Source: Fluviicoccus sp. (lineage in GTDB: Bacteria; Pseudomonadota; Gammaproteobacteria; Pseudomonadales; Moraxellaceae). Taken from it: a stretch of 64,000 nt of DNA. The notes beneath the pieces are model-generated. The model saw only the letters and a program-made list of their open reading frames with translations, searched no databases and was not told the origin of the DNA. Shown one piece after another: positions 7,923-10,587 of the stretch (the stretch's first letter is position 1; each line of letters starts with the position of its first letter). Position numbers and translations under genes: made by a program. The stretch spans positions 1 through 64,000 of the forward strand of contig NZ_JAUSMX010000009.1 in NCBI RefSeq assembly GCF_030646115.1, written 5' to 3'.

Positions 7923-9230
7923 ATGATGATTCGCCGTCTTGATACCAAGGCTGAGAGCTTTGCGTCTGAACTGGATGCCTTGCTGGCATGGGAAGCCGTC
8001 AGTGACGGTCGCTTGCAATCGGCGGTGGACGCCATCGTACAAGAGGTACGGCATAACGGCGATGACGCGTTGCTGGATTATACGGCTCGCTTCGACCGGC
8101 TGCAGGTATCAGCGATGTCCGGGCTGACCATGACGCCCGGACAGTTACAGGCCGCCTATGAAAATTTGCCTGAAAGCGAGCGCCATGCCCTGAATGTGGC
8201 GGCTGAGCGCATTCGTCGTTACCACGAGCACCAGAAGGCCGTTTCCTGGGAGTACACCGAGGCCGATGGCACTCGTCTTGGTCAGCAGGTTACGCCGCTG
8301 GACCGGGTCGGCATTTATGTCCCCGGCGGAAAAGCCAGTTATCCTTCTTCCGTATTGATGAATGCCATACCGGCCCGGGTGGCGGGTGTTACGGAAATCA
8401 TCATGTGCGTGCCGACCCCAGGCGGTGAAACAAACATGTTGGTGATGGCGGCGGCCTGGTTGGCCGGTGTCAGCCGGGTATTCACGATTGGTGGCGCGCA
8501 GGCCGTGGCGGCGCTGGCGTATGGGACGGAAAGTGTGCCGCGCGTCGACAAGATAGTCGGCCCCGGCAACAGTTATGTTGCGACGGCCAAGCGTCAGGTT
8601 TTCGGGCAAGTCGGCATCGACATGATTGCCGGGCCTTCGGAAATACTGGTGTACTGTGATGGTAAGACTTCGCCGGACTGGATAGCCATGGATCTATTCT
8701 CCCAGGCCGAACATGACGAAATGGCCCAGTCCATCCTGATCAGTGAGGATGGTGCATTTCTGGATGCCGTGGAGGAGGCCTTGAGCCGGCTGTTGCCGAC
8801 GCTGGATCGGGAGGCCATCGCCCGCACCTCACTGTCCGGCCGTGGCGCCCTGATCCGGGTTCAAAACCGGGATGAGGCCTTGGCGTTGATCAACCGTATC
8901 GCTCCGGAGCATCTGGAACTGTCGGTAGAAGCCCCTGAGGAGTTGTTGCCCTCAATTCGCCATGCCGGCGCTATTTTCATGGGGCGGTTTACCCCCGAGG
9001 CGCTGGGGGATTATTGCGCTGGTCCCAATCATGTGTTGCCTACGTCCGGCACCGCCCGTTTCTCTTCCCCATTGGGTGTGTATGATTTTCAGAAACGTTC
9101 CAGTCTGATTTATTGCTCGGCAGCTGGAGCCAGTGAGCTGGCCAAGGTGGCTTCGGTGCTGGCGCGCGGAGAAGGATTGACTGCGCATGCCCGTTCCGCA
9201 GAGTACCGGATTTTGGACAGGGAGGACTGA
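7923..9230 (+). CDS. hisD: Histidinol dehydrogenase
   Basis: The 435-residue protein has the conserved blocks of histidinol dehydrogenase: GLYVPGG-like [40 protein letters not shown] and the metal/active-site region [14 protein letters not shown]. It oxidises histidinol to histidine in two NAD-dependent steps. Two ATG codons (7923, 7926) stand at the start; either may be used. The next small gene begins one base after its stop. Confidence 0.96.
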
Positions 9231-9231
9231 A

Positions 9232-9474
9232 ATGAGTCTAGCCGACCGTTTTGTGGCCTTTGCCGAGGCAGGAAACCAGCAGCGCCTGTCGCTGCGGGAT
9301 GGCAGCGTGCTTCAGGGCTGGATCATGGAAATTACCGAAGACGCCATGTTGGTCAGTACCGGAGCTGGTGAGTCCGGCAAGGATAACTGGGTGAAGTTAC
9401 AGGATATAGACGAGGCTACATTGGCTTATTGGGACGCCCGTCAGCAAGCGTGGCTGCGTTTTCTGCTGCCCTGA
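9232..9474 (+). CDS. Sm/Hfq-like small protein, unknown function
   Basis: This 80-residue protein starts one base after the hisD stop, with GGAGGA in the last hisD codons as a strong ribosome-binding site. Its middle, LSLRDGSVLQGWIMEITEDA followed by MLV, has the pattern of the Sm1 motif of LSm and Hfq proteins (strand, Asp/Asn-Gly turn, strand, Gly, hydrophobic strand). A later segment, WVKLQDIDEATL, could be an Sm2-like strand. The C-terminus is Trp-rich. The Sm fold is an inference from the pattern, and no function is known to me. Its place between hisD and hisC suggests co-expression with histidine genes. Confidence 0.8.
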   Translation: MSLADRFVAFAEAGNQQRLSLRDGSVLQGWIMEITEDAMLVSTGAGESGKDNWVKLQDIDEATLAYWDARQQAWLRFLLP

Positions 9475-9516: not shown

Positions 9517-10587
9517 ATGTCCGATTTGTTGTCCCTGATTCGCCCCGAAATTCGGGAGCTAAGCGCTTACCATGTGGCTGATGCTGCCGGGTTGGTCAAG
9601 CTGGATGCCATGGAAAACCCTTATGAATGGGATATGTCCCTCAGGAATGCATGGCTGGAACACCTGAAAAGCGTCAACCTGAATCGGTATCCGCACCCGC
9701 ATGCTCCCGCCGTCAAGGCCGGTCTGCGCGAAGTCATGGATATCCCACCCGGCATGGAAATCATGCTCGGCAACGGTTCCGACGAAATCCTGCAAATCCT
9801 GTTGATGGCCTTGGCCCGGCCCGGCGCCACGGTGCTGGCGGTGGAGCCGTGCTTCGTGATGTATCGCTTCGTCGCACGGTTTGCCGGTATGGAATACGTG
9901 GGCGTTCCGCTGAATGATGATTTCAGTTTGCATACGGAAGCGGTTTTGGCGGCAATTGCTGTGCATCGCCCGGCTGTCATTTTTCTGGCCGAGCCCAACA
10001 ATCCCACCGGAAACAAATATGACCCGCAAGCGGTGAGGGCGATCATCGAGGCATCGCCCGGTTTCGTGGTGCTCGATGAAGCGTATTTGCCGTTTACAGA
10101 CGGTGATGCCATGCCCTTGTTGCAGGTGTATCCGAATGTGCTGGTGATGCGGACGCTGTCGAAGGTGGGTTTGGCAGGGCTGAGGTTGGGGTTTCTGGTC
10201 GGCCGACCGGATGTGCTGGGTGAGCTGGAAAAAATCCGCCTGCCTTACAATATCAATATCCTGAGCCAGGCCAGTGCCGAGTTCGCACTGGCGCATTATG
10301 CCGTGTTTCAGGAACAGGCAACCCGGATTCGGGCGGAGCGTTCCCGGTTGTTTGAGGGGTTGTCGCGTTTGCCGGGATGGAGCATTTTTCCTTCTGAGGC
10401 CAATTTCATTCTGGCCAGAACACCGGGCGGTCAGGCCAAGGCGATATTTGCCGCGTTGAAGGCGAAAGGTATTCTGATCAAGATTCTGGATGGCGCACAC
10501 CCCTTGCTGGGCGACTGCCTGCGTTTTACGGTCGGTTTGCCGGAAGAAAACGATGCCGTGCTGAAAATCTTGCAAGAGTTGTCGTGA
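9517..10587 (+). CDS. hisC: Histidinol-phosphate aminotransferase
   Basis: This 356-residue fold-type I PLP aminotransferase has the PLP lysine in TLSKVGLAGLRLGF, the substrate motif EPNNPTGN and a C-terminal arginine region CLRFTVGLPEEN. It makes histidinol phosphate from imidazole acetol phosphate. The ATG at 9517 follows TGGAGCG. It closes the murA-hisGDC group and is followed by a convergent hairpin. Confidence 0.95.
   Translation: MSDLLSLIRPEIRELSAYHVADAAGLVKLDAMENPYEWDMSLRNAWLEHLKSVNLNRYPHPHAPAVKAGLREVMDIPPGMEIMLGNGSDEILQILLMALARPGATVLAVEPCFVMYRFVARFAGMEYVGVPLNDDFSLHTEAVLAAIAVHRPAVIFLAEPNNPTGNKYDPQAVRAIIEASPGFVVLDEAYLPFTDGDAMPLLQVYPNVLVMRTLSKVGLAGLRLGFLVGRPDVLGELEKIRLPYNINILSQASAEFALAHYAVFQEQATRIRAERSRLFEGLSRLPGWSIFPSEANFILARTPGGQAKAIFAALKAKGILIKILDGAHPLLGDCLRFTVGLPEENDAVLKILQELS

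Follow-up and report, generated by a model that had tools for sequence, protein, structure and literature searches.

A conserved acidic protein of the Moraxellaceae with a predicted Hfq-like fold

INTRODUCTION

In the RNA chaperone Hfq, F/Y42 stacks uridine in the proximal pocket, R16, R17, and R19 make up a basic rim, and YKHAIS is the Sm2 motif. Rof (YaeO) is likewise Sm-like; it is monomeric and binds Rho, and its best DALI match is Hfq, at 4.9% identity (PMC11018607, PMC11018626). Its residues in contact with Rho in helix 1 are C10, Y13, D14, and E17 (PMC11018626), and where Rof is missing, Rho may come under the control of other factors, as has been suggested (PMC11018607). FlgV of Borrelia, formerly called Hfq, is an unrelated membrane protein and serves here as a caution only.

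Here, we describe gene X, a small gene found within a 64,000-nucleotide stretch of Fluviicoccus sp. DNA, referred to as the window. The product of X is predicted to have an Sm-like fold, and we compare it with Hfq, Rof, and the C-terminal barrel of RimP.

RESULTS

Gene X and its conservation

Gene X is an open reading frame (ORF) of 80 codons on the forward strand, at positions 9232 to 9474, with the product MSLADRFVAFAEAGNQQRLSLRDGSVLQGWIMEITEDAMLVSTGAGESGKDNWVKLQDIDEATLAYWDARQQAWLRFLLP (80 residues). The ORF upstream was assigned to hisD in the preliminary description, from the sequence alone, and we take it to be that gene; its stop codon (9228 to 9230) is followed one base later by the ATG of X at 9232, and hisC starts at 9517, 42 bases 3′ of X (Table 1). 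The ribosome-binding site that had been described as excellent and overlapping the end of hisD is indeed there, as GGGAGG inside the last codons of that gene, and AGGA in the Acinetobacter homologues likewise overlaps or follows the stop of the preceding gene. An alternative in-frame ATG at 9187 would give a 95-aa product; the start at 9232 is favored because of the N termini of the homologues and the Shine-Dalgarno spacing.

Table 1 Coordinates in the window of gene X, its neighbors, and the predicted elements of its product
Feature	Position	Strand	Description and basis
hisD	7923..9230	+	Upstream neighbor; ORF
Shine-Dalgarno GGGAGG	9220..9225	+	Within hisD 3′ end, 6 nt 5′ of gene X ATG; read from sequence
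Gene X	9232..9474	+	80-aa acidic protein with predicted Sm fold, pI 4.4, Moraxellaceae-restricted orphan family; ORF, homologues, structure model, pI, dN/dS
N-terminal alpha helix	9238..9270	+	Residues 3-13; DSSP on AlphaFold2 model
GNQQ motif	9271..9282	+	Residues 14-17, helix/strand 1 junction; G, N, Q invariant, fourth Q or H; alignment
Strand 1	9280..9294	+	Residues 17-21; model
Strand 2	9307..9333	+	Residues 26-34, hallmark Q-G-W-I-M-E-I (Sm1-like); model, alignment
Strand 3	9343..9357	+	Residues 38-42; model
Strand 3/strand 4 loop	9358..9384	+	pLDDT about 76; ends in G-K/Q-D, residues 49-51, G and D invariant; model, alignment
Strand 4	9382..9396	+	Residues 51-55, then short helical turn 56-58; occupies place of Hfq YKHAIS; model
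Strand 5	9406..9435	+	Residues 59-68; Y/F66, and W67 that is near-invariant; model, alignment
C-terminal strand 6, extra	9448..9459	+	Residues 73-76, W74 invariant; outside canonical Sm barrel; model, alignment
hisC	9517..10587	+	Downstream neighbor; ORF

X is a real, conserved gene and not a chance ORF, since it has homologues in other genera (44 to 62% identity), 12 invariant columns in the alignment of the 26 family members, a marked codon-position bias (among 25 Acinetobacter copies substitutions fall mostly at the third position, 8615 versus 1955 at position 2), and a low dN/dS (median about 0.08 for the Acinetobacter copies), which indicates strong purifying selection.

The X profile matched 187 of 348 Moraxellaceae genomes, belonging to 6 of the 16 genera. 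Nearly every Acinetobacter genome examined carries the gene, A. baumannii records included; among the genomes listed, which leave out 141 non-matching genomes of the survey, two from Acinetobacter lack it, both of them fragmented drafts (93% and 80% complete). Outside the Moraxellaceae, sampling of about 390 genomes at the order level and 369 at the class level yielded no credible relatives. We take X to be a single-copy gene ancestral to part of the family, conserved most strongly in Acinetobacter. Some copies are in records filed as Acinetobacter plasmids or as “Acinetobacter phage MD-2021a” (NZ_CP076815.1 [L082], CP040042.1 [L083], CAKLQH020000008.1, and CAKLQF020000012.1). The two plasmid records that we opened contain the entire chromosomal mutY-M23-X-tag block, and these plasmid- and phage-filed records are likely mis-filed or mis-assembled pieces of chromosome, or captured DNA.

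Genomic neighborhood

We examined 77 X loci, some of which are one contig seen in two collections. The usual order is mutY-M23-X-tag (63 loci), and mutY-M23-X(-tag) is common to several genera; M23-X, M23-X-recN, and argH-X are minor contexts of a few loci. The position between hisD and hisC, on which the idea of an RNA-based control tied to amino acid synthesis had been built, was found in only three of the 77. In the window genome, mutY is on a different contig, where X is not found. Whether it follows hisD or an M23 gene, X starts immediately behind the preceding stop codon, its ribosome-binding site lying at the junction, and it thus appears to be co-translated with whatever gene comes before it.

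The hisD genes of loci L002 and L003, from a related genus, are 75% identical to that of the window, while the hisC genes adjoining X there (positions 1750 to 2793 and 222 to 1205, respectively) are about 31% identical to the window hisC and therefore do not represent the same gene lineage; judging from these identities, the aminotransferase gene 3′ of hisD-X was probably exchanged for one of another lineage. In genus g10 (locus L004), X is flanked by two different M23 peptidase-like genes (917 to 1513 and 1791 to 2396), in the order mutY-M23-X-M23.

Near gene X, no Rfam element was matched and no clear promoter was found, and terminator-like sites in the region occur only in the number expected by chance. 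A histidine-linked RNA control was rejected on these grounds together with the lack of a conserved context, and a link of X to histidine control is not supported.

Sequence relationship to known families

Searches of Pfam, NCBIfam, PHROGs, and the PDB sequences with X gave no significant match, and Hfq and Rof (PF07073) were absent from the Pfam matches of all 26 members. The RimP C-terminal barrel (PF17384) gave sub-threshold matches in five of them (best E value, 0.037). The family is without match to any curated family, its members are annotated “hypothetical protein,” and open-access literature searches found no study of X.

The Sm1-like pattern noticed at the outset was confirmed in the family as R/K-I-x-L-x-[DN]-G-x-x-L/Y-Q-G-W-I, with Q28, G29, and W30 invariant. 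We then compared the X family with 62 Hfq and 15 Rof sequences by profile alignment with hhalign, using 300 column shuffles as a control. The alignment pairs strand 2 of X, RLSLRDGSVLQGWIMEI, with the Sm1 strand of Hfq, SIFLVNGIKLQGQIESF; the real score was reached by 29 of the 300 column-shuffled Hfq alignments and, for Rof, by 76 of 300. Since shuffles match the real scores, sequence kinship of X with Hfq or Rof is unproven; no significant profile match to either family was seen, and X as a diverged Hfq or Rof was rejected at the level of sequence. The Rof-Hfq pair, too, escapes this method, which leaves room for a remote common ancestry.

Predicted fold

An AlphaFold2 model built on the 26-member alignment, which is shallow (Neff about 2.4), reached a pLDDT of 93 and a pTM of 0.81 (model 1). 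A second, independent model, built on an alignment of sequences from Acinetobacter and one Moraxellaceae MAG and leaving out the window protein, reached a pLDDT of 89 with the elements in the same order (model 2). Both have an N-terminal helix and a five-stranded Sm-like barrel, with a C-terminal strand in addition (Table 1, with secondary structure assigned by DSSP on model 1). The fold claimed from the sequence has thus held up: a model without a five-stranded Sm barrel had been named as the outcome that would speak against it, and the barrel is present in both models, with Hfq as the top matches.

Among the Foldseek matches listed for model 1 against the PDB, most were Hfq chains and some were RimP chains, with weak E values (best 0.024), a probability near 1, and target-normalized TM-scores of roughly 0.55 to 0.7. 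In the structure alignment of model 1 nearly all matches listed were Hfq (best Hfq Z score, 8.1), and the Hfq-like protein of M. jannaschii (2qtx_D) superimposed with an rmsd of 1.7 Å over 56 residues; for model 2, all 50 of the 50 matches listed were Hfq (best Z score, 7.5). A Z score below 8 may mean no more than a commonly occurring arrangement, and the PDB contains a great many Hfq structures; these matches therefore speak for an Sm-like fold but not for shared ancestry. Rof structures were outside the 50 matches listed for either model, an absence that excludes nothing, and a viral fold library gave no match with an E value of ≤0.001, only generic small barrels.

Charge and RNA-contact residues

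The X family is acidic in all 26 members (pI 4.05 to 4.87, net charge −4 to −10), whereas the Hfq cores of three Moraxellaceae, including the window organism, have a pI of 10.1 and a net charge of +5. By computed pI, Rof sequences are mostly acidic too. The window genome has a separate canonical Hfq gene. Across the Moraxellaceae Hfq loci (G000:C7:104227-104409, L046, among them), the C-terminal tails differ greatly in length: the whole protein has about 100 aa in some genera but reaches about 200 aa elsewhere.

With the Hfq/X register taken from secondary structure and the weak profile alignment, the position of Hfq F42 would be D or E in all 26 members, that of Y25 mostly I, S, or V, and that of R19 a G, the rim being replaced by F-A-E-x-G, with the arginines absent. 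YKHAIS is replaced by W-[IL]-x-F-x-[DE]-[LI], and only the equivalents of a glycine, Gln33, and Gly34 (the last two Q28-G29 in X) appear to be kept. In this register, the proximal, distal, and rim RNA-contact residues of Hfq appear to be lost from the X family. An Hfq-type RNA chaperone is disfavored because of this apparent loss and the acidic pI, and X is unlikely to be one. The conserved Q28-G29 could be a partly retained distal-type site, and acidic Sm-fold proteins can in principle bind RNA as oligomers.

DISCUSSION

Proposed role of X

We propose that X is a small, soluble, acidic Sm-fold protein, with an N-terminal helix, a five-stranded barrel, and an extra C-terminal strand, that would act as a regulator or adaptor by binding another protein through a conserved patch, and not as an Hfq-type RNA chaperone; we give this reading about an even chance of being right. 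The patch would be made up of GNQQ, QGW-ME, and GKD-W, the candidate residues being GNQQ (14-17), QGW-ME (28-33), S42, and G-x-D-x-W (49-53), with W67 and W74 as the probable anchors of the extra hairpin. X would be translated from the ribosome-binding site at the end of whichever gene stands upstream, and its placement between hisD and hisC probably reflects a local rearrangement that affected the genus of the window and Agitococcus-like relatives. Protein binding, a monomeric or non-canonical assembly, and a regulatory role are what we infer for X, for which Rof would be the closest working analogue.

In a wider version of this proposal, X would join Hfq and Rof as a third type of Sm-fold regulator in bacteria, limited to Acinetobacter and its relatives; it would have a binding surface of its own and govern some central process, for instance the termination of transcription or the turnover of RNA, where Rof is not found. 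This version is tentative, and we consider it rather unlikely.

That X forms an Hfq- or LSm-like RNA-binding ring regulating mRNAs, in its strict form tied to histidine synthesis, seems improbable. The predicted fold is closest to that of Hfq, the equivalent of Hfq Q33-G34 is invariant, and hisD and hisC adjoin X in three loci, but the family is strongly acidic, the uridine pocket, YKH, and basic rim appear to be absent, a canonical Hfq is already present in the window genome, the histidine context is rare, and neither an Rfam element nor a clear promoter accompanies the gene. Moreover, in the models, the extra strand after strand 5 might block ring closure.

X might instead help its usual neighbors, the M23 murein peptidase and the base-excision repair genes mutY and tag, or else the ribosome or RNA-processing machinery, as the RimP C-terminal barrel does, and we regard this too as unlikely. 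The gene order kept across several genera would fit the former, and the weak RimP profile matches of five members and the RimP chains found by Foldseek the latter. However, the RimP scores are not significant, and X has parted from these neighbors in the genus of the window and elsewhere, yet has stayed conserved. Besides, a lipoprotein-like signal can be read in the sequence of the M23 product but not in that of X, so the two are probably in different compartments.

Least likely, and in our view doubtful, X is a diverged or analogous Rof that binds Rho, blocks its primary RNA site, and fills the niche in a lineage in which Rof has not been seen: size, fold class, and acidity are shared with Rof, the window genome has no match to the ROF family, and other Rho regulators have been suggested where Rof is missing (PMC11018607), but the profile score is not significant, conservation in X is mostly outside the helix, and C10, Y13, D14, and E17 have no visible conserved equivalents in its helix 1 (in an alignment that is not reliable there), so that Rho is just one possible, and improbable, target.

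Comparison with known systems

The RimP C-terminal domain resembles X as a small SH3/Sm-like barrel, with sub-threshold profile and Foldseek matches, but X has 80 aa, is without the RimP N-terminal domain, and scores below the PF17384 cutoff. Hfq (PF17209) resembles X in the predicted N-terminal helix and five-stranded Sm barrel, provides the best PDB matches, and has the Sm1-like G-x-x-L-Q-G-x-I stretch in the equivalent position. On the other hand, the two show no significant sequence relationship, Hfq is basic and X acidic, and X has an extra C-terminal strand and appears to be without the F42 pocket, YKH motif, basic rim, and Y25; furthermore, a bona fide Hfq coexists with X in the window genome. 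The attractive notion that the histidine genes are governed by an RNA switch is not borne out here.

Rof/YaeO (PF07073) is, like X, a protein of about 80 residues, acidic and Sm-like, with an N-terminal helix. It differs from X in its taxonomic range, X being found in Moraxellaceae only, in giving no significant profile match, and in its helix 1 Rho-contact residues, which are not recognizable in X. Rof is structurally nearest to Hfq and yet is no RNA chaperone; it acts as an inhibitor of Rho, whose RNA site it blocks. Should X indeed be an Sm-fold factor that binds protein, it would be an unstudied conserved factor in the medically important genus Acinetobacter, and it would strengthen the case already made by Rof for the conversion of the Hfq fold from RNA chaperone to protein regulator.
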